A stretch of DNA of 64,000 nt from Sphingomonas panacis. Lineage in GTDB: Bacteria; Pseudomonadota; Alphaproteobacteria; Sphingomonadales; Sphingomonadaceae. The notes under the pieces were generated by a model, which saw nothing but the letters and a program-made list of their open reading frames with translations, made no database searches and was not told the origin of the DNA. Made by a program: the position numbers and the translations under genes. The DNA lies in assembly GCF_001717955.1 (NCBI RefSeq), contig NZ_CP014168.1, positions 124,001-188,000 on the forward strand. The letters run 5' to 3'. Positions 14,756-35,541 of this stretch are shown here, piece after piece (position 1 is the stretch's first letter; every line of letters starts with the position of its first letter).

Positions 14756-14767
14756 TGTCCGTGTCTC

Positions 14768-17069: not shown

Positions 17070-17400
17070 TGCTCGTCTCCGCCAGCAGGTCGACCTCCTC
17101 CGTGATGAGGATGATCCGTCGGCCGCCCATACCTCTGGTCTGCGCAGTCGCCGCCTTCCATTCGGGTGACGAGAAGGCGGTATCCAGCGCCGCCTGGTCG
17201 GCAAAGGTCAGCACGGCATGCCCGTCCCATGCCGGCGCCTCGGGATTGTCGTAATCCTTGGTGACGGCGCCGTGCCGATAGGCCGTGAGCCCGGGCAGCA
17301 CTCTGGCGGCATCGGCGTGAGGCCCACGCCACCAGATCGTGAACTGCTCGTGCGTCCAGTCCGTCGGCCGGCTGGCCAGGACGACCATGCTGACCGACAT
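17062..17400 (-). CDS. EthD domain-containing protein
   Basis: A 112-residue ferredoxin-like dimeric alpha/beta-barrel protein. The family pattern HEQFTIWWRGPHADAARVLPGL is clear, with the conserved His in GPHAD, and a second strand pair near WDGHAVLTFAD. EthD-type proteins occur in degradation clusters as accessory proteins or small isomerases/decarboxylases; their reaction is usually undefined. It starts 3 bp after the enoyl-CoA hydratase stop and overlaps the SDR start, so it is tightly embedded in the operon. Confidence 0.8.
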   Translation of the reverse strand: MSVSMVVLASRPTDWTHEQFTIWWRGPHADAARVLPGLTAYRHGAVTKDYDNPEAPAWDGHAVLTFADQAALDTAFSSPEWKAATAQTRGMGGRRIILITEEVDLLAETSNG

Positions 17401-17403
17401 CGC

Positions 17404-18201: not shown

Positions 18202-18245
18202 GAATTCTCTCCTTTGTGAATGGTTGAAAAGCGAATTTTGAAACT

Positions 18246-18950: not shown

Positions 18951-18977
18951 TCTGCCTCTCCTGGCCAATCTGATGCT

Positions 18978-18991
18978 CGACCGACTGGTCG
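18978..18991. promoter_or_regulatory. Cluster operator 1 (CGACCG-AC-TGGTCG)
   Basis: A 6-2-6 inverted repeat with one mismatch, 28 bp upstream of the CMD-like start. On the minus strand it lies two bases after TTGACG (18994-18999), so it fills a -35/-10 spacer. It is one of seven copies near the cluster's operon starts. I infer repressor binding by a TetR-type protein. Confidence 0.7.
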
Positions 18992-19023
18992 GGCGTCAAC
19001 CGAAAAATTTCCGCCTGACCTAT

Positions 19024-19052
19024 TTGACAGCCGACCGGTCGGTCGGGTAGCC
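19024..19052 (+). promoter_or_regulatory. Promoter with embedded cluster operator 2
   Basis: TTGACA (19024-19029) is followed after 17 bp by GTAGCC (19047-19052), a weak -10. The perfect palindrome CGACCG-GT-CGGTCG (19032-19045) occupies the spacer. It drives the acyl-CoA dehydrogenase operon starting at 19134. A bound protein here would occlude RNA polymerase. Confidence 0.65.
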
Positions 19053-19059
19053 AAACAGT

Positions 19060-19073
19060 CGACCGCTCGGTCG
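19060..19073. promoter_or_regulatory. Cluster operator 3 (CGACCG-CT-CGGTCG)
   Basis: A perfect 6-2-6 palindrome 28 bp downstream of operator 2 (start to start) and 60 bp before the dehydrogenase GTG. The near-three-turn spacing from operator 2 would put two bound dimers on similar faces of the helix. Confidence 0.65.
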
Positions 19074-19133
19074 GGCGAGTCCTAAAGTAGGCGAGACAGG
19101 ACGAATCGTGTCGCGCATCGGGGAGGACAACGA

Positions 19134-20378
19134 GTGATTTTCGAACAGTCTGCGAAATCCAGGGAGTGGATGGAGCGGGTCCGCGCCTTCATGGACGAGC
19201 ATATCGTCCCGGCGGTGCCGATCTACCAACAGCAACTCGCGGCTATCGACCGATGGGCGGAGATCCCGCCGATATTCGAGCAGCTCAAGGCCAAAGCGCG
19301 CGCCGAGGGGCTTTGGAACATCTTCATGCCACCGTCGGAGCATGACGACGCGTTCTTCACCAGCGTCGGGCTGACAAACGTCGAATATGCGCCGATCGCC
19401 GAACTGATGGGTCGCGTCTCGTTCGCAAGCGAGGTGTTCAACTGCATGGCGCCCGACACCGGCAATTTCGAAGTGCTGCATCGTTACGGTACGCCCGCGC
19501 AGAAACAGCGCTTCATGGTGCCGTTACGCGACGGCGAGACGCGGTCTGCCTTCCTGATGACAGAACCGGCCGTTGCCTCCTCCGATGCGCGCAACATCCA
19601 GACCGAAATTCGCCGCGAGGGCGACGAATACGTCGTCAATGGCCGCAAATGGTGGTCATCCGGGGCCGGCCACCCGCATTGCGCCTTCTACATCGTGATG
19701 GGCAAGACCGATCCCAACGCCGCGCCCTATCACCAGCAATCGATGATCCTCGTGCCGCGCAACACGCCCGGCATCACGCTCGTCCGCCATCTGCCGGTGT
19801 TCGGCTATGATCATGCGCCGCACGGGCATTTCGAGGTGCTGCTCGAAAACGTCCGCGTGCCCGCCGAGAACATGCTGCTCGGCGAAGGGCGAGGGTTCGA
19901 GATCGCGCAAGGCCGCCTTGGGCCGGGACGAATCCATCACACGATGCGAAACATCGCGACGATGGAGGTCGCGCTCGAAAAGACCTGCCGGCGGCTGCTG
20001 TCGCGGCGGGCGTTCGGAAAGGCGATTGCGGAACATTCCGTCTGGGAGGAACGCATCGCGCGCGCGCGCTGCGAGATCGAGATGGCGCGTCTGCTTTGCC
20101 TCAAGGCGGCGCACATGATGGATACCGTCGGCAACAAGGAAGCGCGCGCCGAGATCGCGATGATAAAGATCGCAGCACCCAAAATGGCACAGCAGATCGT
20201 CGATGATGCCATCCAGGCGCATGGCGGCGGCGGCGTGAGCGACGATTTCGGCCTCGCCGAACTCTGGGCCAACACGCGCATCGTCCGCCTGACCGACGGC
20301 CCCGATGAAGTTCACGAACGCCAATTGGCGCGCATGGAACTCGCGAAATATCGCGAACGCGACGGAGCGACATCGTGA
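19134..20378 (+). CDS. Acyl-CoA dehydrogenase, ACAD10/11-like
   Basis: A 414-residue FAD flavoprotein of acyl-CoA dehydrogenase fold. The N-terminal helical domain, [14 protein letters not shown] (FAD/substrate strand), [11 protein letters not shown] and the C-terminal [18 protein letters not shown] are typical of the ACAD11 branch. Where MCAD has its catalytic Glu in YEGT, this protein has TDGPDEVH, so Asp replaces Glu. The GTG start follows GGGGAGG. A GTGA overlap links it to a phosphotransferase-like kinase, the gene pair seen in levulinate (LvaC/LvaA) catabolism and fused in animal ACAD10/11. It may eliminate phosphate from a 4-phosphoacyl-CoA. Confidence 0.88.
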
Positions 20379-21457
20379 GCGCGGCACAACCCGCCGCGAT
20401 GATCGGCGGCACGGTCGATGTGGCGGCGAACAGCGCTTTCGACGAAGCGAGGCTCATCGCCTATCTCTCCGGCCGTATTCCAGAATTCCCAGGCTCGGTG
20501 CGAGTCCAGAAGTTTGAGGGCGGCCAGTCGAACCCGACGTTCCTGCTATCGACGCCCGATGCGCGCTACGTGCTTCGTCGGAAACCGGCGGGCGCGCTTC
20601 TCAAATCGGCGCACGCGGTCGATCGTGAATATCGCATCACCAAGGCTTTGTTCGAGGCTGGACTTCCCATCGCCGAGCCGCTTGTGCTCTGCGAGGACGA
20701 CGATGTTATCGGAACGATGTTCTATGTGATGCGGCACGTTCCCGGGCGCAGCTTCTGGAATCCGCGCATGCCGGGTTTGGAACGCGCCGAACGCGCGGCC
20801 ATCTACGATTCGGCGAACGAAACGCTGGCGCGCCTTCATCTGGTCGATTTCGAGGCGATCGGGCTTGGCGATTATGGTCGCCCGGGCAATTATTTCGCGC
20901 GTCAGGTCTCGCGCTGGTCCCGCCAATATGAAGCATCGCGCACCCGCGACATTCCGGAGATGGAACGCCTGCTGGCATGGTTGCCAGGCGCCATCCCGGA
21001 AACGGGCGACCGCACGACGATCATCCACGGCGATTACTCCTTCCACAACCTCCTCGTGCATCCGACCGAACCGAGAGTTTCGGCAGTGATCGACTGGGAA
21101 TTGTCTACGCTTGGCGACCCGCTCGGCGATCTCACCTATCACATGATGGAATGGTCGCGCCCCGAAGGCGTCGATGCTCGCGGCACATTGCAGGGGGCCG
21201 ATCTCGGCGCCCTCGGCATCCCCACCGCGCAGGAATATGCGCGACGCTATTGCGAGCGCACCGGCTTTCGCGGCGACCCGACGCACCCCTTCTACCGGGC
21301 CTTCAACCTGTTCCGGGTGGCCGCGATCCTGCAGGGAATCGCTGGCAGAGCGCGCGACGGTGTCCAGACCGCTTCGAACGCCGAAGACATCATCTCGCGT
21401 GTCGAACCGCTCGCCCGCGCGGCGTGGATCGCCGCTCAGGAAGCGGGAGCAGGCTGA
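20375..21457 (+). CDS. APH-family phosphotransferase (acyl-CoA kinase candidate)
   Basis: A 360-residue aminoglycoside-phosphotransferase-fold kinase of the ACAD10/11-associated type. The nucleotide loop region [12 protein letters not shown], the ATP-binding Lys in [17 protein letters not shown], the catalytic [13 protein letters not shown] and the metal-binding Asp of [12 protein letters not shown] are all intact. The start GTG overlaps the dehydrogenase stop. By analogy with LvaA it may phosphorylate the hydroxyl of a 4-hydroxyacyl-CoA. A paralogue sits at 39918-40988. Antibiotic resistance is unlikely given the context. Confidence 0.87.
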
Positions 21458-21526
21458 CCCGATCACGCGGAGACGAAACGATCATCATGGCCATAAAAAA
21501 AGGCCAGTTCGTAGGAGAGAGATACC

Positions 21527-23821
21527 ATGACCAAGAAAGCGCAGTCCTTCCGTACAATATTGCTCGCTGGCAGTGCCCTGGCATTCGCCAGCCCCGCGTT
21601 CGCTCAAACGGCGCCGGCTTCCGGCGCGCCCGTGAGTAACGCGGCGCAGGCCAGCATCGCCGACATCGTCGTGACGGCGACCCGTCGCGCCGAACGGTTG
21701 CAGGACGTGCCAATCGCGATCAGCGCGCTCGACGGCGCGCAGGTTCAGGCGCAACGCATCGACAATTTCGCGTCGATCACCAAGATCGCGCCGGGGCCGA
21801 CGTTCGTACCAGTCAAAGGCACGTCCACGATCGCGGTACAGATCCGCGGAAAATACTCGAACAACGATGCTCCCGGTCTGGAAAATCCGGTGGGCGTGTA
21901 TATCGACGACATCTATTACGGCTCACTGGCGTCCTTCGACGCCAATCTGTTCGATGTCAGCCAGATCGCGATTCTGCGCGGGCCGCAAGGCACGACGTTC
22001 GGCCGCAACGCGGTCGGCGGCGCTCTCCAGATCACCAACAACGTCGCCGAACTCGGCAAGACCGATGCGCGGATCACCCTGACCGGGCTCGGCAACGCGA
22101 TGGGCCAGTTGGGTATCGAGAGCGACGGGTATGTCAATTACGCGATCGGCAGCTCACTGGCCGCGCGCTTCGCCTATAGCGTGAAGAACGACGGCGGGTA
22201 TCAGAAGAACCTGCTGTCGGGCAATTACCTCGATGACAATCGGGTACAGAGCGTGCGCGGCTCGGTGACGTGGCAAGCTTCCGAACGCCTCAAGATGACC
22301 GCGAGCGCATCCTACACGCATCGCGGAGGCTATGGTGACGGCGCGGTCATTGTCGGCCAGGGCGCTCTGGTGAAGCAGGTTCGCGCGGCGAACGGCGGCG
22401 ATCTTCACAAGACCTTGCTCGACGACGACGGCGAGACTCGCCGGCACCTGTTCGCTGGCATCCTGAAACTGGAATATGACACCGATGTGGGTACGATCGC
22501 GTCCATCACCGGCTATCGATCGCTCAACGCCTTCTATCAGGAGGATTCCGACGGCGGTCCGCTGCCGGCGAACTATCCTTCGATCAACATCAACAAGGAA
22601 AAGCAGGTCAGCGAAGAGCTTCGCTTCACCTCGAAATTCGGCGGCCCGTTCGATTTCGTCTCGGGCGTCTATTTCGGATACGAAGATCTCTACAAGGGCA
22701 TCCAGTTCAATTTCAACGGCACGCTGCCGCAGTCCTATCTGTCGGTCCTTTCACCCGGCCGGGTCGCATCGCAGTTCGTGGCCGGCAGGATCTATAATTA
22801 CAGCGTCGGGCCGTTCATCGAGGGAAAATACAAGATCACGCCGCAACTCTCGCTGACGGCAGGGCTTCGCTACAGTTACGAGCGCAAGAACGGCTACACC
22901 TCGCACGAGGGGTCTTCGCCCTTTTACGGGGCGCCGTATTTCGTCGAACTCGGCAAGAACGGGGGCACCAATTCCTGGCAGTCCTTCACACCGCGCTTCA
23001 TCGTCGATTATAAACCGACTCGGGATATCTCCTTCTATGCTTCGGTTTCCAAGGGCTTTCAGGGCGGCGGCTGGGTGCTGACCGCGACCAGCGCAGCCAA
23101 GGCGCTCGTTCCGCTCGCCGCGGAAACGACGTGGAGCTACGAGATCGGCACGAAGTCCAATTTCTTCGATCATTTCCTGACGACCAACGTCGCGGCGTAT
23201 CTGTCCGACACGAGCAACCTTCAGGTCCGTTCGCTGATCAACGGCGTGCTGACGGACAGCAACGCCGGCAAGGAGCGCGTGAAGGGTGTCGAGGTCGAAG
23301 CGGCCATTCACCCGGTAGCAGGTCTCTCCATCGGAGCGAATTACGCGTATACCGACGCCGTCTATCGCAGCTTCCCGGGGTGTGCGGCAGGCGGCCTGGA
23401 CTGTACCGGAAACCGGGTTCCGTTCGTATCGAAGAACGACTTCACCGCGCTTCTCGATTACAAGATGGATCTCAAGAGCGGCGCCAGGCTCGGCTTCCAC
23501 TTCGACGACAAGTTCGCAAGTCCGTACCAACTCATCGCCACGAACCTCCAGCAGATCGGCGTGCCGTATACGAGGCGGCGCAACGTCGCCAACGCTTCGG
23601 TGAGCTACACTCCGCCCTCGGGCGCGTGGGATCTGCGGCTGTGGAGCACCAATCTGTTCGACAAGACCTACGCGAGCAACGGTCTGAACTATTACTTCTA
23701 CCATATGTCGCCGGCGGAAGTTTCGGCGGGCGGTGGTGCCGCGAACGCGGACGTCGAGCGGCTGACGATCGCGCCACCGCGCGTTATCGGCATCACCTTC
23801 ACCGCTCGGGTCGGAGGGTAG
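21527..23821 (+). CDS. TonB-dependent receptor
   Basis: A complete 764-residue outer-membrane receptor. A signal peptide (residues 1-27, ending SPAFAQ) is followed by the TonB box and plug start DIVVTATRRAERLQDVP and by the plug motif ILRGPQGTTFGRNAVGGAL, then a beta-barrel to the end. The ribosome site TAGGAGAGAG precedes the ATG. Sphingomonads use receptors of this type for hydrophobic or aromatic substrates. Its place between the kinase and the MFS gene indicates that it imports the pathway's substrate across the outer membrane. The last residues (FTARVGG) lack the usual terminal aromatic. Confidence 0.92.
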   Translation: MTKKAQSFRTILLAGSALAFASPAFAQTAPASGAPVSNAAQASIADIVVTATRRAERLQDVPIAISALDGAQVQAQRIDNFASITKIAPGPTFVPVKGTSTIAVQIRGKYSNNDAPGLENPVGVYIDDIYYGSLASFDANLFDVSQIAILRGPQGTTFGRNAVGGALQITNNVAELGKTDARITLTGLGNAMGQLGIESDGYVNYAIGSSLAARFAYSVKNDGGYQKNLLSGNYLDDNRVQSVRGSVTWQASERLKMTASASYTHRGGYGDGAVIVGQGALVKQVRAANGGDLHKTLLDDDGETRRHLFAGILKLEYDTDVGTIASITGYRSLNAFYQEDSDGGPLPANYPSININKEKQVSEELRFTSKFGGPFDFVSGVYFGYEDLYKGIQFNFNGTLPQSYLSVLSPGRVASQFVAGRIYNYSVGPFIEGKYKITPQLSLTAGLRYSYERKNGYTSHEGSSPFYGAPYFVELGKNGGTNSWQSFTPRFIVDYKPTRDISFYASVSKGFQGGGWVLTATSAAKALVPLAAETTWSYEIGTKSNFFDHFLTTNVAAYLSDTSNLQVRSLINGVLTDSNAGKERVKGVEVEAAIHPVAGLSIGANYAYTDAVYRSFPGCAAGGLDCTGNRVPFVSKNDFTALLDYKMDLKSGARLGFHFDDKFASPYQLIATNLQQIGVPYTRRRNVANASVSYTPPSGAWDLRLWSTNLFDKTYASNGLNYYFYHMSPAEVSAGGGAANADVERLTIAPPRVIGITFTARVGG

Positions 23822-23823
23822 AC

Positions 23824-25128
23824 ATGGACGGCGCCGTGACTCGCAAGCCGGAAACGGCGCCTCCGACGGCACCGTCGAATCGCACCCGGCGCCTCGTGCT
23901 GGTGATGCTGGGGCTGGTATCGATGTTCAACTACATCGACCGGACCGTGCTTTCGATCCTGCAGGAGCCGATCAAGCGCGAACTCGGGTTGAGCGACGCG
24001 CAATTGGGTATGCTGACCGGCCTCGCCTTCGCGCTGTTCTACGCAACGCTGTCGTTGCCGATCGCGCGCTTGGCCGACCGGCTCAATCGGCGCAACATCG
24101 TCACCGCCTCGCTCGCGGTGTGGAGCGGCATGACCGCGCTTACCGGCCTCGCGACCGGATTCGCGACGTTGGTGGCCTTCAGGATCGGCGTGGCGCTCGG
24201 CGAGGCGGGATCGGTGCCCGCATCGCATTCGATGATCGCCGATTATTATCCGCCCGAGAAGCGCGTGACCGCACTCGCCTTATGGGGCCTTGCGCTGCCG
24301 GCGGGGATCATGCTCGGCTACGCATCGGGCGGCTGGATCGCCGCGACCCTCGGTTGGCGCACCGCCTTCGCGGTCATCGGCGGGGCTGGTCTCATACTCG
24401 CGCCTTTCATGTTGCTGCTGGTCAAGGAGCCGATGCGCGGCGCCTTCAACAAGCCGCAACAAGCGGCCGAGCGGATACCGCTCGGCGCGGCCATCGCTAC
24501 GCTGTGGAGGCTGCGCACCTACCGCTACATGCTTGCGGGCACCACGCTTCACGCCTTCGCGCAATATGCGATCATGAACTGGACCGCACCCTTCTACATG
24601 CGCGTGCATCATATGCCGCTGTCCGAAGTCGCGGGATGGCTGGCGCTGATGAACGGCATCGGCGGCGGTATCGGCATCTATCTCGGCGGGTGGCTTTCGG
24701 ACAGGATGGCGCGCTCCGATCCCGCGGCACGAGTCTGGGTCAGCGCGGTGGCGATGTTCGTGATGGTTCCGGCGGCGCTGGTGCAGTTTCTCGTCCCCTC
24801 GCCGGGGCTTTCGCTCGCGTTCGGTTTTGTGGCGACCATGCTGATGTTCTTTTATTATGGCCCGATTGTCGGCGTACCGCAGTCGCTTGTAGCGCCGCGG
24901 ATGCGTGCGCTCACCTCCGCAGTGACCCTGCTGGTCTTCAACCTGTTCGGACTTGGGCTCGGCCCAGCCGTCACCGGCTTCATCAGCGATCGTCTGGCCG
25001 CCGGCGGCGGCATGCACGATACGTCGCTTCGTTATGCGCTTGCGGTGGTGCTGGTCTTCTCGCTGGTGGGCGCGCTGAGCATCGCTTGGGCGAGCCGCTT
25101 CTACCGATCGGAAATCCGCGAGTCCTGA
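23824..25128 (+). CDS. MFS transporter
   Basis: A 434-residue major facilitator with 12 predicted membrane helices. FNYIDRTVLSILQEPIKREL in helix 1 and the loop motif ARLADRLNRRN between helices 2 and 3 are typical of the sphingomonad spinster-like/ACS-type transporters. The ATG at 23824 lies 2 bp after the receptor stop; a much longer open frame upstream overlaps the receptor and is spurious. It probably carries the substrate over the inner membrane after TonB-dependent uptake. Confidence 0.9.
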   Translation: MDGAVTRKPETAPPTAPSNRTRRLVLVMLGLVSMFNYIDRTVLSILQEPIKRELGLSDAQLGMLTGLAFALFYATLSLPIARLADRLNRRNIVTASLAVWSGMTALTGLATGFATLVAFRIGVALGEAGSVPASHSMIADYYPPEKRVTALALWGLALPAGIMLGYASGGWIAATLGWRTAFAVIGGAGLILAPFMLLLVKEPMRGAFNKPQQAAERIPLGAAIATLWRLRTYRYMLAGTTLHAFAQYAIMNWTAPFYMRVHHMPLSEVAGWLALMNGIGGGIGIYLGGWLSDRMARSDPAARVWVSAVAMFVMVPAALVQFLVPSPGLSLAFGFVATMLMFFYYGPIVGVPQSLVAPRMRALTSAVTLLVFNLFGLGLGPAVTGFISDRLAAGGGMHDTSLRYALAVVLVFSLVGALSIAWASRFYRSEIRES

Positions 25129-25160
25129 TCTTCGCATTTCACCTGCGCTCGGGAGACTTC

Positions 25161-26633
25161 ATGCCCATCGCCACTCGTTCGCTGCGCATGTGTGCGGCAG
25201 CCGCCATCGCCCTGTCCGCGCCCGTTGCGGCGGGACCGCTCGGCGATGCAGCCTCGACGCAGCGGCTCTTCCGGGGCCGGTCGAGCGATCCCTACACGCT
25301 GGCGGTGAGAGCCACGGTCTGGGGATATCCGTTGGTCCGTGCCGCGCAGTTGCGCCAGAAGGCGACCCAGCCGGATCATCCGTTCGCCCCGCGCGCGCAG
25401 ACTGTCGCGACCGCGCCGCTGAACAGACTGGGGCGTGCGAGGCAGCTTGCCGACCCCGATACGCGCATCGGAGTCGCCCCGAACAACGACACGCTCTACG
25501 TTCTGGCGTTTCTGGATACAAACAACGGGCCGTTCCTGCTCGATACGCCGGACTTCGGGAACCGATATTACACGTTCCAGTTCGGCGAGGCCGACAGCGA
25601 GACTCGCCATTCCTACGGGCAAAGCACACACGGCGGGAAACTGCCGCCGATCTTCATCGTCGGCCCGGATTATCGCGGCGCCACGCCAGCCGGCGCGCTG
25701 ACGGTACGGAGCGAACAACGCTATCTGATGATTGCGGGGCGGCTTCTGGTCTCCGGGGCGGATGATCTTCCTGTCGTCCATCGACTGGAAGACCGCATTT
25801 CGCTCAGCAAGTGGCTCGGGCCGGGCGTTCTCGGCCCGACCACGGTAACGCCGCAACGCATTCTTGCGGGCGCCGGAAGCCAGGTTCCAGATGGCCTCAA
25901 GCTTCTCGCCGACCTTGGTACGGTGATGCAGGACTGGAAGCCGGCGGCACAGGAGCAATCATTGTTTCGATCTTTCCGGGCGATCGGCATCACGCAGGAA
26001 GACGGGTTTCGCTTGGATCGGCTGAACCCGTCCCAGCGCGCCGCGATCGAGGCCGGGGTCGAAGACGGCCTGAAGATCATCGGCGCGAAAACCCGCAATC
26101 TGGGCGCGATGGCGAACGGCTGGTCGACGAGCTATTCCGGATCGACCTTCGGAAAAGATTATCTCCTCCGCGCGGCGGTGGCGATGGATCAGATCTACGT
26201 CGTGGACAAGGACGAGGCGCTCTATCCGGTCGCCCATCTGGACGGCAAGGGCGCGCCGCTGGACGGCCGGAACGCCTATACGATCTGCTTCAGCAAGCAG
26301 GCGCTTCCACCGGTCAACGCATTCTGGTCGATCACCCTGTATTACGCCAAGGGTTTTCTCGTGCCGAACCGCATGAAACGCTATTCGATCGGTGATCGCA
26401 CACCCGGGATCACCTATGGAAAGGACGGCTCGCTCAAGCTCTACGTGCAGAGCGAAAGCCCCGGTGCCGGGAAGGAAGCAAACTGGCTGCCCGCTCCGAA
26501 AGCGGGCTTCATGCTCATGATGCGGCTCTATCGGCCCAAGCCGAGCGCGATGCGCGGTCAGTGGCATCCCCCCGCCGTAACGCCGCTGGGAAATCCCGCG
26601 GAGTCAAAAGACGAGGGCTGTTCCGCACGGTGA
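25161..26633 (+). CDS. DUF1254/DUF1214 domain-containing protein
   Basis: A 490-residue exported protein (signal peptide about 1-24, APVAAG). The N-terminal DUF1254 region contains GYPLVRAAQLRQ and NNDTLYVLAFLD; the C-terminal DUF1214 region contains LPPVNAFWSITLY and NWLPAPKAGFMLMMRLY. The ribosome site GGGAGAC precedes the ATG. The family's biochemistry is not established. It ends the rightward operon that begins at 19134. A paralogue is found at 38391-39869 beside the second kinase/dehydrogenase pair, so it is probably functionally linked to the pathway. Confidence 0.85.
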   Translation: MPIATRSLRMCAAAAIALSAPVAAGPLGDAASTQRLFRGRSSDPYTLAVRATVWGYPLVRAAQLRQKATQPDHPFAPRAQTVATAPLNRLGRARQLADPDTRIGVAPNNDTLYVLAFLDTNNGPFLLDTPDFGNRYYTFQFGEADSETRHSYGQSTHGGKLPPIFIVGPDYRGATPAGALTVRSEQRYLMIAGRLLVSGADDLPVVHRLEDRISLSKWLGPGVLGPTTVTPQRILAGAGSQVPDGLKLLADLGTVMQDWKPAAQEQSLFRSFRAIGITQEDGFRLDRLNPSQRAAIEAGVEDGLKIIGAKTRNLGAMANGWSTSYSGSTFGKDYLLRAAVAMDQIYVVDKDEALYPVAHLDGKGAPLDGRNAYTICFSKQALPPVNAFWSITLYYAKGFLVPNRMKRYSIGDRTPGITYGKDGSLKLYVQSESPGAGKEANWLPAPKAGFMLMMRLYRPKPSAMRGQWHPPAVTPLGNPAESKDEGCSAR

Positions 26634-26647
26634 TGTCATCCGTCGGG

Positions 26648-27646
26648 TCAGGCGGCGAGCGAGGCCCGCGCTGCGGCAGCGCCACCGTAGAGCCGCGATA
26701 GCAACAGCACGCGACGCAAGCCCCGGCCCGCCGCGAGTTCGTCGGTCACGCCCATGCCGCCGTGAAGCTGCACGACATCCTCCGCAAGCCGCAGCGCCGC
26801 ATCGAAGACATACGCCTTGGCAGCGGTCACGGCTCGCGGCCGGACTTCGTCGGCAACCAGTGCGGCCTTGAGCAGCATCGAACGCGATTGCTCAAGCAGC
26901 GTGTAAAGACGCGCGCAACGATGTTGAATCGCTTGGAAACTGCCGATCGCCTTGCCGAACTGCTTGCGCTGCTGAACATAATCGATGGCGAGATCGAACA
27001 GAATGCCCATCGCACCGACCAACTCCGCGACGATCGCCAGTTCGGCCAGCGTGATCGCGCCGGTGAGATCAGCCTCGGATATGCCAAGCATAGCGGCAGA
27101 GGCACCGTCGAACCGCAGGTCGGCCGCCATGCTCCCATCGACCAGCCGCACAGGTGCGCGATGGACGCCGGAGCCATCCGCCTCGACGAGAGCCACATCT
27201 CCTGTTTGCGACACCACAACAAAAGCGGAGGCCGCCATGCCATCGCGAACGATCCCGACATCGCCGGAAAGACGTCCGTTTTCGATCGTGCCGCCGCGCG
27301 CGAAGCCGAGGACGACATCGCCCTGCGCGAGCGGCGCGCCCCACTGACCGGACGCATCGCTTCGCGCGATCACCTGTCCGCACAGCACCACGCTTTCCGC
27401 CAGCGGGGTGATCGCCAGGGCGCGGCCGAACTCTTCGGCGACGATCATCACCTCGGCGGCGCCGCCGTTCATGCCGCCGGCCTGCTCGGGAAGCAGCAAG
27501 GCGAACAGGCCGAGATCGCCCAGCGCGCGCCAATCCGCCGATGTCATCGGGCCCTTGGCCATGCTGGCGGCATCATAGCGATCCGCGAGGAAACGCCGCA
27601 CCATGTCGCGGACCATCACCTGTTCGTCGGTCGGCGCGAAGTCCAT
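26648..27646 (-). CDS. Acyl-CoA dehydrogenase, short subunit
   Basis: A 332-residue acyl-CoA dehydrogenase-family protein, short for the family (380-400). It has the N-terminal LLPEQAGGMNGGAAE and the C-terminal RKQFGKAIGSFQAIQHR and QLHGGMGVTDE, but the middle beta-domain is reduced and the usual YEGT Glu region reads LYGGAAAAR. This looks like one half of a heteromeric (alpha2beta2) dehydrogenase of the steroid-catabolism type, paired with the protein at 28845-30023. I chose ATG 27646, 2 bp after the thiolase stop; the longer frame overlaps that gene. Last gene of the operon. Confidence 0.83.
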   Translation of the reverse strand: MDFAPTDEQVMVRDMVRRFLADRYDAASMAKGPMTSADWRALGDLGLFALLLPEQAGGMNGGAAEVMIVAEEFGRALAITPLAESVVLCGQVIARSDASGQWGAPLAQGDVVLGFARGGTIENGRLSGDVGIVRDGMAASAFVVVSQTGDVALVEADGSGVHRAPVRLVDGSMAADLRFDGASAAMLGISEADLTGAITLAELAIVAELVGAMGILFDLAIDYVQQRKQFGKAIGSFQAIQHRCARLYTLLEQSRSMLLKAALVADEVRPRAVTAAKAYVFDAALRLAEDVVQLHGGMGVTDELAAGRGLRRVLLLSRLYGGAAAARASLAA

Positions 27647-27648
27647 CG

Positions 27649-28824
<1,176 letters not shown>

Positions 28825-28844
28825 GGATTACGTCCTTTTGTCTG

Positions 28845-30023
28845 TCACAGGCCGAGCGCGGCCTTGGCGATGATGGAAAGCTGGATTTCGCTGGTGCCGC
28901 CGAAGATCGACCAGGCGCGCGCGTTGAGATAGCGGGCGGCCGCGACCTGCGCTTCGGCGGAGCGGATCGGTGGAGGCGCATCGTTGCCGTAGAACGGGCG
29001 ATCGAGCGGAAGCTGAAGACCGGCGAGGCCGAAGGCATCGACGGCCAGCGCCTCGATGCCCTGCCGAATTTCGGACGCGATCAGCTTGGTCGTAAGGCTG
29101 CGCGAGTCGGGGGAGGCGCCACCCTCGATCTCGATCAACGTCCTGAGTTCGGTGATTTCCAGTGCCTCGGCCTCCAGACGCAGCCGCAACGCGCGATCCG
29201 CCAACTCGCCGGCAAGCGGCCCCGCCGCCTCACGCAGCCGCCGGATGTCGGCGAGCAACTGGGGCGCGAAGGAAGACCCCCCGCGTTCGTTCTCGAGAAG
29301 GAACTTGGCGATCGACCAGCCCTGCCCTTCCTCGCCGACCCGCTCCGCGACCGGGACGCGCACGTCGTCGAGAAAGACCTCGTTCAGTTCGTGGTCTCCC
29401 GACGCGCTGAGGATCGGCTTCACGGTCACCCCGGGCATGGCCATGTCGATCAGCAGGAAGCTGATGCCCTGCTGCGGCTTGACGTCGGCATCGGTGCGTA
29501 CAAGCGCAAACAGCCGGTTCGCGAACTGCGCCTGCGTGGTCCAGATCTTGTGACCCGACACGACATACGCATCCCCGTCCCGCACGGCGCGGGTGCGCAG
29601 GCTGGCAAGGTCGGAACCCGAACCGGGTTCGGAAAATCCCTGCGCCCACACATGCTCGGCGCTGCGCAGACGGGGCAGATAGTGCGCCCGCTGCGTGTCG
29701 GTGCCGAAGGTATAGAGGACAGGCCCGACCAGCTTGAGCCCCATACCGGGCAGGACTGGCACTCCAGCCTCCGCGCATTCCTTCTCGAAAATCCAGCGCT
29801 GGATCGGCGTCCAGCCCGGTCCGCCGGCGTGGACCGGCCAGTGATAGACCAGCCAGCCCCTGGCGTCGAGAATCGCCTGCCATTCGCGCGCGATATCCGG
29901 CTCGGCGAAGACGCTGGAGGTCAGCGCCGCGCCGCGGCGCAGTTCAGGGGTCAGCGCGTGGGCGAGGAAAGCGCGAACCTCGTCGCGGAACGCCGTCTCG
30001 GCGGCGGTGAAGGTCAAATCCAT
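28845..30023 (-). CDS. Acyl-CoA dehydrogenase, FadE-like
   Basis: A 392-residue acyl-CoA dehydrogenase. The motifs WAQGFSEPGSGSDLASL and YVVSGHKIWTTQAQFAN (FAD and substrate strands) and the C-terminal WSIFGGTSEIQLSIIAK are typical of FadE-type enzymes. The position of the MCAD Glu is Gly (FGGT), so catalysis would use a Glu elsewhere, as in related FadE enzymes. The ATG at 30023 lies 4 bp after the stop of the Ltp-like thiolase gene; a longer open frame reads back through that gene and is spurious. It may pair with the short dehydrogenase at 26648-27646. Confidence 0.88.
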   Translation of the reverse strand: MDLTFTAAETAFRDEVRAFLAHALTPELRRGAALTSSVFAEPDIAREWQAILDARGWLVYHWPVHAGGPGWTPIQRWIFEKECAEAGVPVLPGMGLKLVGPVLYTFGTDTQRAHYLPRLRSAEHVWAQGFSEPGSGSDLASLRTRAVRDGDAYVVSGHKIWTTQAQFANRLFALVRTDADVKPQQGISFLLIDMAMPGVTVKPILSASGDHELNEVFLDDVRVPVAERVGEEGQGWSIAKFLLENERGGSSFAPQLLADIRRLREAAGPLAGELADRALRLRLEAEALEITELRTLIEIEGGASPDSRSLTTKLIASEIRQGIEALAVDAFGLAGLQLPLDRPFYGNDAPPPIRSAEAQVAAARYLNARAWSIFGGTSEIQLSIIAKAALGL

Positions 30024-30027
30024 GCCG

Positions 30028-31173
30028 TCACCGTTCCACGATCGCAACCGCCGACACGCCGGGCGCGCCGTACACATGGCTGTAGCCAAGCCTCGGATTG
30101 CCGGGCACCTGTCGCCGGCCGGCCCGCCCGGTAAGCTGGACATAATTCTCGTAAATCTGGCGCAGTCCCGACGCCCCGATCGGCTCGCCGCAGGCAAGAC
30201 ATCCCCCGTCGGTGTTGACCGGTAACGCCCCGTCGATCCGGGTCCGTCCCTCGGCGATCCAGGCAGCCTGTTCGCCATCGGCGCAGAATCCGTTTTCGGC
30301 CATATGCATGATCTCGGCACCGGCCTCGGTGTCCTGAAGCTGGGCGATGTCGATGTCCTCTGGACCAACGCCTGCCATTTCGTAGGCGGCCTGCGCGGCG
30401 ATCGTGGTCGGCGAGCCGCCGCGTTCGAGATCGAGCGCGGGCGAAAAGACTTCGAACGAACCGGGCGGCCGCGTCCGCACCGCCGCCGCGCGCAGCCGCA
30501 CGCTGGGAAGGCCCAATTCCCTTGCCCGTTTTCCGCTCGCGAGGACGAGCGCCACCGCACCTTCGGCGGGGGAGCAGAACATGAACTTGGTCAGCGGATC
30601 GCTGACCATCTGCGATGACAGAATCGTCTCGATATCGACCGCCTCGCGGCGCCAGGCATGATCGGCCAGCACACCGTTCGCAAACGCCTTTTCCGCCACC
30701 GCGCCGAGGGTGCGGAGCGGAATTCCATATGTCGCCATGTAGCGCTGAATCTTCATCGCGAAGAACTGAGTGGTGAGCATGAGGCCGGTCTCGCCATACC
30801 AATCGGGCAAGCCCCAATCGGCCGGCAGCGGCGAGAACGAACCGCGCGGATGCTTGTCGAAGCCGACCGCGATGCCGAGATCGAATTCACCGGACTTGAT
30901 CGTGCTATACGCCCCGAACATCGCCGAGCCGCCAGTTGCGCACCCATTGGCGACGTTGACGAACGGCAAGCCGGTGAGCCCCAGTTCGGACACCATCGTA
31001 TCCGCGTTCCCCGCCGAATCGGATCCGCCGAAGGCGAAGCGGATATCGGGCCAGGCGAGGCCGGTGTGCGCCAACGCCTGGCGCACCGCATGGACACCCT
31101 GCTCAAGCCCAGTAAGGCCCGGCGTGCGTCCGAAGCGATGAATCCCGGCACCCACGATGAAGACATCACTCAT
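30028..31173 (-). CDS. Thiolase-like lipid-transfer protein/aldolase (Ltp2/SCPx type)
   Basis: A 381-residue thiolase-fold protein of the lipid-transfer-protein group. A Cys aligned with the thiolase nucleophile lies in NVANGCATGGSAM. The usual GHPxGATG His motif reads CGEPIGASGLRQIYE, and the end reads YSHVYGAPGVSAV. The GEP variant is typical of Ltp2-like retro-aldolases that remove side chains from steroid-CoA thioesters together with a DUF35 partner. Such a partner lies immediately upstream with a 4-bp overlap. Retro-aldol or thiolytic cleavage of a branched acyl-CoA is inferred. Confidence 0.85.
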   Translation of the reverse strand: MSDVFIVGAGIHRFGRTPGLTGLEQGVHAVRQALAHTGLAWPDIRFAFGGSDSAGNADTMVSELGLTGLPFVNVANGCATGGSAMFGAYSTIKSGEFDLGIAVGFDKHPRGSFSPLPADWGLPDWYGETGLMLTTQFFAMKIQRYMATYGIPLRTLGAVAEKAFANGVLADHAWRREAVDIETILSSQMVSDPLTKFMFCSPAEGAVALVLASGKRARELGLPSVRLRAAAVRTRPPGSFEVFSPALDLERGGSPTTIAAQAAYEMAGVGPEDIDIAQLQDTEAGAEIMHMAENGFCADGEQAAWIAEGRTRIDGALPVNTDGGCLACGEPIGASGLRQIYENYVQLTGRAGRRQVPGNPRLGYSHVYGAPGVSAVAIVER

Positions 31174-31592
31174 CGCCCGGCTCCCACGGCTGGCGCAAAG
31201 GCGAAGCTGGTGCGGACCTCGCCGCTCGCCAATGTGAACGGCAGCGGCACGAGCCGCATCGGCATGTCGATCCGCAACGCATCGAACGCGACATCGACCA
31301 GCCGCGATTCGACGATCAATGCGCCGTCGAGTTGCACATAGCCGACCGCATAGGGTTCGAAAGCGTCCGGCCCGGCATAAGGCGGCGATTTCGGCCGGAA
31401 GCGCTGGACCGTCCAGGACCAGAGCCGCCCCTCGTGTGGCAAGGTGATGGTTTCGTAGCGGTCATCGGCGGCGGGCTTCGCCGGGAATATCGCGCGACCG
31501 CTCACGCGGTCGCGCGATGCGACCAGCCGATACGCGCCATCGACCTCAACCAGCAGATTGTCCGCGATAACGGGGGCGAGCATGTCGGGCAT
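31170..31592 (-). CDS. DUF35 OB-fold protein lacking the zinc-ribbon cysteines
   Basis: A 140-residue partner of thiolase-like proteins. The C-terminal OB-fold (LWSWTVQRFRP...YAVGYVQLDGALIVESRL) is well conserved. In most DUF35 proteins the N-terminal part is a four-Cys zinc ribbon (CxxCG...CPxC). Here the equivalent stretch reads SRDRVSGRAIFPAKPAADD with no cysteine, so zinc binding is lost. It is first in a five-gene leftward operon whose upstream region carries operator 4. It probably forms a complex with the Ltp-like protein and helps bind the CoA substrate. Confidence 0.82.
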   Translation of the reverse strand: MPDMLAPVIADNLLVEVDGAYRLVASRDRVSGRAIFPAKPAADDRYETITLPHEGRLWSWTVQRFRPKSPPYAGPDAFEPYAVGYVQLDGALIVESRLVDVAFDALRIDMPMRLVPLPFTLASGEVRTSFAFAPAVGAGR

Positions 31593-31622
31593 CGTGTCTC
31601 TCCTGCCCGCCCTTCTAATGCC

Positions 31623-31636
31623 CGACCGGGCGGGCG
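31623..31636. promoter_or_regulatory. Cluster operator 4 (CGACCG-GG-CGGGCG)
   Basis: A 6-2-6 inverted repeat with one mismatch, 31 bp upstream of the DUF35 start and just beyond the LuxR gene's 3' end. It is well placed to control the DUF35-thiolase-dehydrogenase operon. I see no clear -35 box beside this copy. Confidence 0.55.
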
Positions 31637-31659
31637 GCTTCTGACCAATGCGACAGCGG

Positions 31660-32457
31660 CTACCGAATCATCCCCAAAAAGCCGAGTTGCGCTGCCTTGA
31701 AGAGCGTCTGATCCCGATTGACCGCATCCAGCTTGAGCGACGCGGCCCGGATATGGAAACGCACCGTCGTCCGTTGCAATCCGAGGATCAGTCCGATCTC
31801 GTCGTTGGTCTTGCCGGCCGCCGCCCAGCGCAGACATTCGACCTCGCGCTTGGTGAGGGAGACGCCCGCCACGTCCTGCCGAACGTGCGCCGTGACCTTG
31901 ACATAGCTCTGGATGAAAGCCCGGGCGAGCACCGCGAGCGCGTCCGCGACGACGTCATATGCCCCGGAAAGATCCTCTTCGAGCGGATCGGGCGACAGGA
32001 AACTGGCCGCGCCGATCTGCCCGAACGGCAGATGGATCGGCACCACCAACGCCGACGATGTCATCGCCCGCGCACGAAAGTCGGAGAGGTCGATGGCATC
32101 GAGCAGGGGATTGGCGACCCTGGTGCGAAAACCACGCGCGTCGCACCAGAACGGCTCCGCCTCGACCCGACAGGCATGGACGAGCGGTGAGGACAGCGCG
32201 AGCTGCGGCGCGTCCCACCAACGCCCTTCTCCCTCCCGAAACCCGAACACCTCGCTGGCAAGAACCGCACCCTCGCCGTCCCGCATCGGCTCGCGGACCG
32301 CGATGTTGTGGGATACCGCGGTCCGCAATCCGCACAGATGCGCGACCTGGTCCCGAAGCGCCTCCGCCGCGCGCCGGATGCCCGCCAGCTCGGTGAAACG
32401 CACCGCCGCTACGTCCCCGGAGGAAGGCATGTGCCGAAGGTTGCCAGGCACGGACAT
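31660..32457 (-). CDS. LuxR family regulator (solo, autoinducer-domain-like)
   Basis: A 265-residue regulator. The C-terminal LuxR helix-turn-helix (LTKREVECLRWAAAGKTNDE through TTVRFHIRAAS, about 200-255) is canonical. The N-terminal half (about 25-175) resembles an autoinducer-binding domain (SPLVHACR, PFWCDARGF, the ALVVPIH strand). No LuxI synthase gene is in the window, so it is a solo that may sense the catabolic substrate or a foreign signal. It starts 3 bp after the TetR stop, so both regulators are made from one transcript. Confidence 0.85.
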   Translation of the reverse strand: MSVPGNLRHMPSSGDVAAVRFTELAGIRRAAEALRDQVAHLCGLRTAVSHNIAVREPMRDGEGAVLASEVFGFREGEGRWWDAPQLALSSPLVHACRVEAEPFWCDARGFRTRVANPLLDAIDLSDFRARAMTSSALVVPIHLPFGQIGAASFLSPDPLEEDLSGAYDVVADALAVLARAFIQSYVKVTAHVRQDVAGVSLTKREVECLRWAAAGKTNDEIGLILGLQRTTVRFHIRAASLKLDAVNRDQTLFKAAQLGFLGMIR

Positions 32458-32460
32458 GGC

Positions 32461-33078
32461 CTATGGTTTCGCCAGACTAAGTCCTTCGAAAAACGGGCGA
32501 CAGAGCGCGTCCGCGACATCCTCCGGCGATTGTTTCTTCGCCAGCGGCGGATACCATTTATAGGCCCAGTTGCACATGCCGAGGAACCCGAAGGTCGTCA
32601 GGTCGGGATCGCAATCGCGGAACTGCCCGTTCCGGATGCCGGTCGAAACAATGCTTCGGACCTGTTCGAAATACGCCTTGCGCTGCGCCCGGATCTGATT
32701 GCGCATCGTGCCTTCCAGATCCTCATAATGATCCATAAAGGCACGAACATAGCCGGGATGTTCCGCGATCTGCCGCAAGATGTTGATGCACGCCGCGCGC
32801 AACATCCCCAGCGGATCGTCTGAAAGCTCCTCATCCGCCAGTCCGTCGAGCAACGCGGTCATATGCGCGTCGTGGATCGCATAGAGGATGGCGTGCTTGC
32901 TCGGGAAGTAATGATACAGCGTAGGCTTGCCGAGACCGACCTCGTCGGCCAGCATCTGCATCGATGCCTTGTGATAGCCGACCTTATCGAACAAGATGGC
33001 ACAATGCCTGAGGATCTCGTTGCGCTTTTCATCATGCGCTTCGGTCGTCTGTCGTTTCTTTGTCTCGTGTCGCGCCAT
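32461..33078 (-). CDS. TetR/AcrR family transcriptional regulator
   Basis: A 205-residue TetR. The N-terminal HTH (about 20-65: RNEILRHCAILFDKVGY, MLADEVGLGKPTLYHYFPSK) is canonical, and a ligand-binding helical domain follows (a TetR_C-type KstR2/FadR-like C-terminal part). Its position at the centre of the catabolic cluster and the seven TetR-style palindromes around it make it the best candidate for their repressor, relieved by a CoA thioester. It is transcribed after the SDR gene from the promoter region containing operator 5, which would give autoregulation. Confidence 0.9.
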   Translation of the reverse strand: MARHETKKRQTTEAHDEKRNEILRHCAILFDKVGYHKASMQMLADEVGLGKPTLYHYFPSKHAILYAIHDAHMTALLDGLADEELSDDPLGMLRAACINILRQIAEHPGYVRAFMDHYEDLEGTMRNQIRAQRKAYFEQVRSIVSTGIRNGQFRDCDPDLTTFGFLGMCNWAYKWYPPLAKKQSPEDVADALCRPFFEGLSLAKP

Positions 33079-33133
33079 GCCGGCCCCAGATCCTCATTCC
33101 ATCGGACAGCCGCCGGGCCGCCGATCTTGCACC

Positions 33134-33889
33134 TTATTGCACCAGAGCTCCACCGTCCACGGCAAGCGCCGTGCCCGTGATGTAGGACGATTCATCGCTG
33201 GCTAGGAAGAGCACCGCCGCGACCACCTCTCCGATCTCGGCGAGACGGCCGATCGGCACGCGCGATAGCCGAACCGCCAAAGCCGCCGCATCGGTGTACG
33301 CGGCTCGCGCCAGTGCGCTGTCGATCGGTCCGGGATGCACCGAATTGCAGCGCACACCCTCGCGCGCATGTTGCGCCGCCGTGATCCGCGTCAGCATCGC
33401 CAGCGCCGCTTTGCTACACGCATAGGCCGGGTCCATGATCCCGGACTGGCCAAGCCCGGCAACCGAAGACACGTTGACGATCGTGCCGCCGCCCTGCGCG
33501 CGAAAGAGCGGCAGAAACGCGCGCGTGCCGAGGAACGGCCCCTTGGCGTTGATCGCCATGCTTGTGTCCCAGTCTTCCGGGGTGCGCTCCTCGATCCGGG
33601 TAAGGCTCGATGCGATCGCCGCGTTGTTGACGAGGATATCGATCCCGCCCCGGCGGTGGCGGACTTCCGCAACCACCCGGTCCCAGCCCGCCGGGTCCGC
33701 CACATCGAGGCCGATCTCCCAGGCGTCGCCACCAGCCGCGACAATCGCATCGGCCACGTCCAGTCCGGTGCGCTCGTCGATGTCCGCCACGACCACGCTC
33801 GCGCCCGCGCCTGCGAAAGCCGTCGCGATCGCGGCACCGAGTCCCCTCGCTCCACCTGTGATCAGGGCGCGCTTGTTCGCGAGACGCAT
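33134..33889 (-). CDS. SDR family oxidoreductase
   Basis: A classical 251-residue short-chain dehydrogenase. TGGARGLG (cofactor), NNAA, a Ser in NVSSVAG, YACSK (catalytic Tyr/Lys) and GTALAVDGG are all present. ATG 33889 follows TTGGAGAGG; the longer open frame overlaps a divergent gene and is spurious. It is first in an operon with the TetR and LuxR genes and divergent from another SDR gene, with operator 5 between them. It probably oxidises a hydroxy intermediate. Confidence 0.9.
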   Translation of the reverse strand: MRLANKRALITGGARGLGAAIATAFAGAGASVVVADIDERTGLDVADAIVAAGGDAWEIGLDVADPAGWDRVVAEVRHRRGGIDILVNNAAIASSLTRIEERTPEDWDTSMAINAKGPFLGTRAFLPLFRAQGGGTIVNVSSVAGLGQSGIMDPAYACSKAALAMLTRITAAQHAREGVRCNSVHPGPIDSALARAAYTDAAALAVRLSRVPIGRLAEIGEVVAAVLFLASDESSYITGTALAVDGGALVQ

Positions 33890-33900
33890 GACCTCTCCAA

Positions 33901-33929
33901 TTGGTAACTCGACCGTCCGGTCGGTAGCG
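33901..33929 (+). promoter_or_regulatory. Divergent promoter region with cluster operator 5
   Basis: The perfect palindrome CGACCG-TC-CGGTCG lies at 33910-33923 between divergent SDR genes. For the rightward gene a TTGGTA (33901-33906) and GTAGCG (33924-33929) pair with a 17-bp spacer encloses it. This arrangement matches the promoters at 19024 and 35513, with a weaker -35. Confidence 0.6.
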
Positions 33930-33979
33930 TATAGCGTTGGTCCCAATGGTGCTGGAGCGCAAGCCCGAGGGAGAGGAAA

Positions 33980-34732
33980 ATGGAACTGAACGGTAAGGTT
34001 ACCCTGGTTACGGGCGCAAGTTCTGGGCTGGGTCGGCATTTCGCGACCGTGTTGGCGGCGCAGGGTGCGATCGTCGTCGTCGCTGCACGGCGAGAGTCCG
34101 CGCTCGCGGCGTTGGCCAAAGAAATCGCCGAAGCCGGCGGACACTGCATTCCGATCGGTATGGACGTGACCGATCCCGCCTCGGTCGCGGCGGCGTTCGC
34201 GCGTATCGGACAGGCGGTGCCGGCGCCCTTGTCGATCGTCGTCAACAACGCCGGCGTGGCGCACACACGCCGGGCGATCGATATGTCGCCCGAAGATTGG
34301 CAGGATGTGCTCGCCCCGAATCTCACCGGCGCGTTTCTCGTTGCCCAACATGGCGCACGCGCGATGCGCGGCGGCGGTGGTTCGATCGTCAACGTCGCCT
34401 CGATCCTCGGCGAACGCGTCTCCAAGGGGCTGGCCGCTTATGCCGCGAGCAAGGCGGGGCTGATCCAGCTTACCAAGGCGCTGGCGCTCGAATGGGCGCC
34501 GCTCGGCATCCGCGTCAACGCGCTCGCGCCGGGATATATCGAAACCGACCTCAACCGGGACTTCTTCGCATCAGACGCCGGCAAGCGCTTGATCGCTCGC
34601 ATCCCGCAACGCCGGCTCGGCCAGATGGGCGATCTCGATGCGCCGCTTCTGCTGCTCTGCTCGGACCAGTCGCGCTACATGACCGGCTCGGTAATCGCGG
34701 TGGACGGCGGGCATCTCGTCAGCGAACTTTGA
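33980..34732 (+). CDS. SDR family oxidoreductase
   Basis: A classical 250-residue SDR with VTGASSGLG, VNNAGVAH, NVASILG, YAASKAGL (catalytic Tyr/Lys) and GSVIAVDGG. The ribosome site GAGGAAA precedes the ATG. It is transcribed alone, rightward from the operator-5 region, and converges on the CMD-like gene 12 bp away. Substrate unknown; likely an alcohol or hydroxyacyl intermediate of the pathway. Confidence 0.9.
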   Translation: MELNGKVTLVTGASSGLGRHFATVLAAQGAIVVVAARRESALAALAKEIAEAGGHCIPIGMDVTDPASVAAAFARIGQAVPAPLSIVVNNAGVAHTRRAIDMSPEDWQDVLAPNLTGAFLVAQHGARAMRGGGGSIVNVASILGERVSKGLAAYAASKAGLIQLTKALALEWAPLGIRVNALAPGYIETDLNRDFFASDAGKRLIARIPQRRLGQMGDLDAPLLLLCSDQSRYMTGSVIAVDGGHLVSEL

Positions 34733-34744
34733 GCGCGGCGTACA

Positions 34745-35428
34745 TCAGGCGTCCATCGCCGTGGCGCCGATCACCCAGGCAGAAAGACCGGCGGTCGGCA
34801 CCGCGCAGATCACCGCCTCTGCGACGGCTTCCTCGCTGGCGCCAGCCGTGCGTGCGCCTTTGATATGCACCGAAGCCCAGGTGCTGTAGTCGGCGACGAG
34901 CACGGTCACGAGCAGCAGTTCCGCGTGGACCGGTCCGAGCGCGGTCCCGGAGAGCGTACCTTCGCGCATCAGGTAATACGCATCAGCCCCAAGCGGCTTG
35001 ACCTCGAACAGCTTGCCGAGCGAAGGGGGCATGGTTCCGAAATACCGGAGGAAATTGGCCTCCGCCGCGCCGGGTTCGACGACGAGATCCTCGTCGGACG
35101 CTTCGATGTCGACGGCGTCGGGATAGACATCGCAGAAGATGCCGTGGAAACGCAGTGCCGCACCCTCGCCGCGGACGCTCGCCAAGATCGCGACGGCCGC
35201 GCCCGCCTCATCCTCGGTCAGCCCCGCATCGCGCGCCGCCTGCAATTCGCGAAGCGACATTTCCTCATAGCCCTTCACCGTCGCAGCGCAGGCGACGAAC
35301 AGGCGCTTGATCCGCGCCGGCACCGCGCCGTCCGAATCGATGATGAGACGCCAGCGACGGAATCCGGCGATCGTCTTGGGCGCATTGCGCCGCAGGCGAC
35401 CCAGCGCGATGAGAGGATTGGTTGGCAT
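34745..35428 (-). CDS. Carboxymuconolactone decarboxylase-like protein, tandem domain, no CxxC (paralogue)
   Basis: A 227-residue paralogue of the protein at 18246-18950, matching along its whole length (AGFRRWRLIIDSDGAVPARIK versus AGFAAFRSVIDTDGAVPARLK; ADAYYLMREG versus ADAYYLMRRG). The AhpD motif again keeps Glu and His but has no cysteine pair (VADYSTWASVHIKGA). Like its relative it is a leftward gene that starts close to a cluster operator and is divergent from a rightward catabolic operon. A shared role in the pathway is inferred; the reaction is unknown. Confidence 0.78.
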   Translation of the reverse strand: MPTNPLIALGRLRRNAPKTIAGFRRWRLIIDSDGAVPARIKRLFVACAATVKGYEEMSLRELQAARDAGLTEDEAGAAVAILASVRGEGAALRFHGIFCDVYPDAVDIEASDEDLVVEPGAAEANFLRYFGTMPPSLGKLFEVKPLGADAYYLMREGTLSGTALGPVHAELLLVTVLVADYSTWASVHIKGARTAGASEEAVAEAVICAVPTAGLSAWVIGATAMDA

Positions 35429-35447
35429 AACGGCTCCTGCATGATCC

Positions 35448-35461
35448 AGACCGTCCGGTCG
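35448..35461. promoter_or_regulatory. Cluster operator 6 (AGACCG-TC-CGGTCG)
   Basis: A 6-2-6 inverted repeat with one mismatch, 20 bp upstream of the CMD-like start codon. It would control the leftward gene, probably by blocking early transcription. Confidence 0.6.
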
Positions 35462-35512
35462 GCCGAGCCTTGCTATGCCGCTCTTTTCCGGCGGTCAACG
35501 GCGCGATCACGA

Positions 35513-35541
35513 TTGACGCCCGACCGGACGGTCGGCTAAAG
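35513..35541 (+). promoter_or_regulatory. Promoter with embedded cluster operator 7
   Basis: TTGACG (35513-35518), 17-bp spacer, CTAAAG (35536-35541). The perfect palindrome CGACCG-GA-CGGTCG (35521-35534) fills the spacer, two bases after the -35 box, exactly as at 19024. It drives the seven-gene operon that begins at 35601. Confidence 0.65.

Follow-up and report, generated by a model that had tools for sequence, protein, structure and literature searches.

Proteobacterial acyl-CoA regulons have been described for FadP, LiuQ and PsrA. FadP and LiuQ are TetR-family regulators of fatty-acid and branched-chain amino acid degradation, which were delineated by comparative genomics and are described, in passages of that study, as unique to betaproteobacteria (PMC5343134). 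Closer to the present case is EdcR of Caenibius tardaugens (Sphingomonadales), a local TetR repressor in the multi-promoter estradiol cluster, for which excerpts of the report give an operator over promoter boxes and propose autoregulation (PMC8700777). We analyzed 64,000 nt of the Sphingomonas panacis genome (5.32 Mb; NZ_CP014168.1, GCF_001717955.1, forward strand 124,001-188,000; hereafter the window), where a catabolic cluster likewise has a local TetR-family gene (32461..33078, minus strand) lying among seven copies of one palindrome. Our analysis suggests that CCGACCG-N2-CGGTCGG is very probably the operator of this protein, a predicted repressor that would control seven transcription units including its own, with a further input from a LuxR-type regulator through a second dyad, CTG-N10-CAG.

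The 6-2-6 palindromes that the original prediction reported were all present, four exact (19032, 19060, 33910 and 35521) and three with one mismatch (18978, 31623 and 35448). With the core extended by one base on each side, they define the candidate operators O1 to O7. O1 (TCGACCGACTGGTCGG, 18977..18992, minus strand) is predicted to fall between the -35 and -10 of the promoter that reads leftward into CMD1/ECH and occupies the same position in two related loci, L076 and L078. O2 (CCGACCGGTCGGTCGG, 19031..19046, plus strand) would fill the corresponding spacer of the ACAD1 promoter, and O3 (TCGACCGCTCGGTCGG, 19059..19074, plus strand) lies downstream of that promoter. O4 (CCGACCGGGCGGGCGG, 31622..31637, minus strand) is in the putative promoter of the OB/thiolase/ACAD operon, and O5 (TCGACCGTCCGGTCGG, 33909..33924, no strand assigned) is between the divergent SDR1-TetR-LuxR unit and SDR2. 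O6 (CAGACCGTCCGGTCGG, 35447..35462, minus strand) belongs to the CMD2 promoter, and O7 (CCGACCGGACGGTCGG, 35520..35535, plus strand) to the spacer of the SDR3 operon promoter. TTGACA or TTGACG indeed stands two bases ahead of the palindrome at 19032 (19024-19029, plus strand), 35521 (35513-35518, plus strand) and, on the minus strand, 18978 (18999-18994).

The placement of the palindromes, not their frequency, is what sets them apart from chance. All seven cluster sites are intergenic, and the four other window sites with up to two mismatches in the 16-mer lie within genes. The impression that the palindrome has no further copies in the window was wrong: position 8659 has an exact copy, and copies with one mismatch start at 2063, 11380, 13222 and 50691; all five are inside called genes. 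A 16.5-kb stretch in the cluster contains both exact genome sites of the 16-mer CCGACCGNNCGGTCGG and six of the 13 with at most one mismatch. Seven copies fall in 957 bp of cluster DNA that is mostly between genes; 1000 first-order Markov simulations gave at most two, and at most four for any combination of 6-mer and spacer. Because 298 of the 957 bp (23822-24119) fall within a transporter gene, the truly intergenic part is shorter, which makes the test conservative. Genes were called with a simple gene caller, and three miscalled regions (25101-26567, 26762-27652 and 33335-33907) were corrected using domain matches and relatives. Fifteen of the 30 genome-wide sites of the bare core GACCGNNCGGTC were given loci and placed, five of them being cluster sites. 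We did not count as part of the regulon the intergenic core site at 889170 beside an integrase-like gene, the core site at 846322 before an acetyltransferase-like gene, the 16-mer site at 963851 within a gene that belongs to a different acyl-CoA cluster (gene names for these three by eye), or the intergenic 16-mer site at 3232951 with its unrelated neighbors.

The position of the palindrome relative to promoter elements was also fixed. We scored 108 sites from 25 sources in both orientations (216; the window part was 17400-38400, and the set includes overlapping registers and the near-duplicate loci L054/L055 and L059/L060) for hexamers matching TTGACA in at least five of six positions. Such a hexamer stood exactly two bases before CGACCG in 31 of the 216 orientations, against 0-6 at each of 24 other offsets. 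TA was found at spacer 18 in 21 of these 31 promoters and at spacer 17 in four. Together, the hexamer register and the TA spacing suggest that at three promoters (SDR3, ACAD1 and CMD1) the spacer between -35 and -10 is taken up by the operator. An alignment of ten CMD2 promoters showed a conserved GTCAAY (the minus-strand -35), followed by a -10-like GcTAtgc and, a few bases downstream of it, the operator, from which we infer that at CMD2 the operator sits at the start region.

We scanned one genome per species and obtained 20 loci encoding the TetR protein (59-92% identity) from Sphingomonas, Sphingobium, Novosphingobium, Caulobacter, Erythrobacter and other metagenome-assembled genomes (MAGs). 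The operator recurs in the matching intergenic regions, namely CMD2/divergent SDR, SDR1|SDR2, LuxR|OB and, wherever coverage extended that far, CMD1|ACAD1. In closer relatives the CMD2/divergent SDR region holds a pair of sites separated by about 74 bp; at CMD1|ACAD1, L076 and L078 each have three sites and L063 has two. The 16-mer is exact in 11 of the 20 loci, present with at most one mismatch in 15 and with at most two in all 20. At up to one mismatch, these loci have 30 sites in 40,557 bp of inter-gene DNA versus four in 312,402 bp of genes. De novo enumeration of 6-mer half sites with spacers of 0-12 in ten diverged loci, from which the window, L055 and L060 were omitted, ranked CGACCG-N2 at the top (25 sites, eight of the ten loci). 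For seven of the 13 carrier genomes searched, those with complete site lists, 24 of the 75 sites at up to one mismatch lay within 20 kb of the TetR gene. A cluster-wide local regulon linked to this gene, as originally proposed, is thus well supported by comparative genomics.

In the Erythrobacter relative L077 (genome G160), the operator additionally precedes transporter-like, CMD-like and DUF1254-like genes (5984-6003, 9133 and 11505; the transporter by eye), and by this sequence comparison the regulon may be larger there. TetR carriers were found in two of 149 genomes of a family sample, S. panacis included, and the exact 16-mer in 16 of 149; the rarity of the TetR gene points to a patchy accessory cluster.

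The cluster TetR has the two parts expected of its family, a TetR_N helix-turn-helix (PF00440, 47.8 bits, cut-off 24) and a TetR_C ligand domain (PF17932, TetR_C_24, 84.1 bits, cut-off 26.4), and palindromic candidate operators lie in the target promoters and before its own operon. It is likely the protein that binds O1-O7. The autoregulation through the site at 33910 that had been proposed is favored by the gene order, since SDR1 (33134-33892), TetR and LuxR follow one another on the minus strand behind the site. The protein does not belong with EdcR, as its C-terminal domain is PF17932 rather than TetR_C_11 (PF16859) and its candidate operator is not of the TnnCnnTAC type; the operator proposed for EdcR in the excerpts available, TnnCnnTACnAnTnGTAnnGnnA, is unlike CCGACCG-N2-CGGTCGG (PMC8700777). 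Its best NCBIfam matches, FasR, FadR and RutR, were below cut-off (44.4, 42.9 and 41.5 bits versus 330, 200 and 368), as was the KstR model NF033703 (27 bits versus 280), and the 18 families that it matched included no KstR2 model.

Searches of the PDB gave the structure 3vpr, titled as TetR family, as the second-best sequence match (1.5e-18). We take 3vpr to be Thermus PaaR. PaaR is an acyl-CoA-responsive TetR repressor of phenylacetate catabolism; we recognized no paa-type operon in this cluster. A more distant relative is KstR2 (4w97, E 2.4e-8), the TetR repressor of late cholesterol catabolism in actinobacteria, although presumably neither the target genes here nor the operator are those of KstR2. 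Among the 120 matches listed, three homologs (64-70% identity) have the JGI label 'cholesterol catabolism regulator'. The ligand of KstR2, HIP-CoA, is an acyl-CoA according to passages of PMC8700777.

Beside the TetR gene lies a gene for a LuxR-type regulator (31660..32457, minus strand). Its GerE domain is clear (PF00196, 51.2 bits, cut-off 23.5), and the autoinducer domain falls below cut-off (PF03472, Autoind_bind, 20.6 bits versus 23). CTG-N10-CAG is a lux-box signature, and a dyad of this form, which the original prediction had overlooked, is kept beside the LuxR-type gene. In the alignment of LuxR|OB regions, CTGTCGCATTGGTCAG (minus-strand letters, 31641..31656) is almost invariant immediately upstream of the operator, here O4. 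CTG-N10-CAG was present in 17 of 19 such regions (the window, 17 of the 20 loci, and L075; the exceptions, L057 and L075, are one base off), versus an overall background of 0.31 per kb. The ACAD1 promoter has a second copy, CTGACCTATTTGACAG (19015..19030, plus strand), on the same side of its operator and with the -35 TTGACA inside its right arm; the counterparts in L076 and L078 match the consensus exactly (CTGACCAGTTTGACAG). These two are among only three dyad sites with at most one mismatch in the S. panacis genome. Where other genes come between luxR and tetR, as in L054 and L055, a copy that departs from the consensus at one position is found about 80 bp ahead of luxR. The retention of the dyad beside the LuxR-type gene is the best evidence that this protein has sites of its own, leaving the CGACCG palindrome to TetR, and we consider it likely that the LuxR-type protein binds the two boxes. 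The predicted TetR operator, at up to two mismatches, is present in ten of the 19 regions, including the window, and eight regions have the box without it; as a predicted TetR target, the OB promoter is lineage-specific.

GerE-domain proteins of the LuxR type, LuxR solos among them, are described as binding lux boxes of dyad symmetry, one of which lies over a -35 (PMC10134790, PMC5601948). The protein encoded here shares the GerE domain and has candidate boxes of this kind; it differs in an autoinducer domain that scores below the Pfam cut-off and in a gene position within a catabolic cluster. In the Caulobacter relative L078, a TonB-receptor-like gene has a further CTG-N10-CAG (CTGTCGTTGCGGTCAG, at 5612) about 80 bp upstream and from this position is possibly another LuxR target.

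Several observations weigh against the proposed regulon or limit it. The bare core is not enriched in the genome (30 copies versus 35 for the reversed control), and the 16-mer with at most one mismatch occurs 168 times in the 13 carrier genomes versus 232 for the control, exceeding it in six of the 13. Five of the 20 loci (L054, L055, L057, L058 and L064) have sites with two mismatches only, and sites of that quality occur inside genes too. The loci were selected by TetR homology, so that co-occurrence is partly by design, and two carriers among 149 genomes are too few for a comparison of carriers with non-carriers to be informative. The TetR operator is absent from the OB promoter in nine of the 19 sources. 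For the LuxR part, the box at ACAD1 is weak in L061 with nothing similar in L062 and L063, and LuxR homologs are encoded elsewhere in the L061 and L063 genomes, leaving the small MAG L064 as the only case of TetR without a LuxR match. Passages on Vibrio fischeri report that a lux box over the -35 mediates repression (PMC5601948), and activation by LuxR at ACAD1 is therefore not a safe conclusion.

We weighed these points against three other explanations. The genome-wide counts would suit palindromes that are functionless chance matches in GC-rich DNA, as would the ordinary count in the window (12 sites with at most one mismatch, at list index 19 when every 6-mer half site is paired with spacers of 0-12). 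Random frequency across the genome was one of the refutations that the original prediction named, and for the bare core the frequency is literally random; only clustering and location counter it, and we dropped genome-wide enrichment as proof of a regulon. We nevertheless regard chance as extremely improbable, given the intergenic clustering, the conservation in divergent loci with variable flanks and the fixed -35 register. A regulator encoded elsewhere, with the cluster TetR using a different operator, is a somewhat more serious possibility, as the genome has four further TetR-like stretches that match at 26-29% identity. However, the motif travels with the cluster TetR across genera, and no other well-placed copies were found: six of the seven 16-mer sites outside the cluster (at most one mismatch) are in called genes, and the seventh, at 3232951, lies among genes that by eye look unrelated. 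We consider this explanation quite unlikely. The LuxR-type protein might instead bind the palindrome, or both regulators might compete for one site, and luxR is indeed kept with tetR beside the sites in most loci. Against this, LuxR has its own conserved dyad, which is exact in eight loci without a CGACCG palindrome in that region (a ninth, L057, is one base off), and L061 and L064 retain the operator with no luxR adjoining their tetR (the L063 contig ends right after tetR). The spacer position also suits a repressor, and we give this reading very little credence.

We return to TetR as the probable owner of the palindrome. From the sites, their recurrence, their -35 register, their co-occurrence with the TetR gene and the dyad beside the LuxR-type gene, a scheme can be proposed for which protein binds what, with which effect and in response to what. 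Without inducer, TetR dimers would occupy the seven sites in four intergenic regions and block RNA polymerase either within the -35/-10 spacer (O1, O2 and O7) or at the start region (O3 and O6). This would shut seven transcription units, among them SDR1-TetR-LuxR through O5. The inducer that frees TetR from the DNA would be an intermediate of the pathway, probably an acyl-CoA of the substrate. The LuxR-type protein probably works through the box just upstream of each of the operators O2 and O4 and would most likely activate ACAD1 and the thiolase operon, and dual control by TetR and LuxR is likely. The predicted sites of the two proteins touch at the ACAD1 promoter, with the box over the -35 and the operator in the spacer, and are 3 bp apart at the thiolase promoter, which in distant relatives retains only the LuxR box. 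It is about an even bet that the neighboring genes form a two-regulator gate, in which TetR would sense an intracellular acyl-CoA, a non-canonical LuxR solo would sense the substrate or an outside signal, and full expression would need both LuxR input and derepression, with the TetR operator of the thiolase promoter gained or lost by lineage.

The seven units (about 11.7-42.6 kb) were defined by gene spacing and relatives, and their limits as operons are inferred; they carry the regulon beyond the originally described interval, to about 11658-42570. Unit 1 (11658..18950, minus strand), a closely spaced putative operon, encodes CMD1, an enoyl-CoA hydratase, an EthD-domain protein, an SDR, an AMP-binding ligase, an ECH/3-hydroxyacyl-CoA dehydrogenase fusion and a zinc-type reductase. 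Unit 2 (19134..26633, plus strand), also a putative operon, encodes ACAD1, an APH-family phosphotransferase, a TonB receptor, an MFS transporter (23824-25128) and a DUF1254/1214 protein (25161-26633). Unit 3 (26648..31592, minus strand) comprises an OB-fold protein (ChsH2_C), an SCP2-type thiolase, ACAD3, a thiolase and ACAD2. The SDR1-TetR-LuxR unit (33892-31660, minus strand) begins with SDR1 and is followed by SDR2 (33980..34732, plus strand) and CMD2 (34745..35428, minus strand; carboxymuconolactone decarboxylase family). Unit 7 (35601..42570, plus strand), the last putative operon, encodes SDR3, SDR4, ACAD4, a DUF1254/1214 protein, an APH-family protein, an enoyl-CoA hydratase and a DUF2889 protein. 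No RNA element reached the Rfam gathering score in 11000-44000.

The nearest PDB entries to ACAD3 were 4x28 and 6wy8, which we take to be steroid side-chain enzymes, and those to the thiolase were benzoylsuccinyl-CoA thiolase and SCP2-thiolases. These relatives hint at alicyclic or steroid-like acids, and CoA-linked breakdown of such an acid is our guess at the substrate. The cluster has two APH-family phosphotransferase genes (20375-21457 and 39918-40988), the first of which directly follows ACAD1 and presumably resembles ACAD10/11-type pairs. The same genome has a second acyl-CoA cluster (G000:C1:958000-970000, L068), whose genes, judged by eye, resemble those of dehydrogenases, ligases, thiolases, monooxygenases and an IclR regulator.

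Literature searches with GACCGNNCGGTC and GACCGACCGGTC returned no paper, and no description of this regulon or cluster was found in titles, abstract starts or passages. A local TetR regulon is ordinary in kind; its operator and members are those for which we found no description. The analysis yields an operator sequence, seven predicted promoters and two candidate regulators for a patchy acyl-CoA cluster of sphingomonads and Caulobacter, and offers a likely case of combined LuxR-solo and TetR control in catabolism. With the operator and promoters in hand, the substrate and inducer of the cluster become testable through a reporter.

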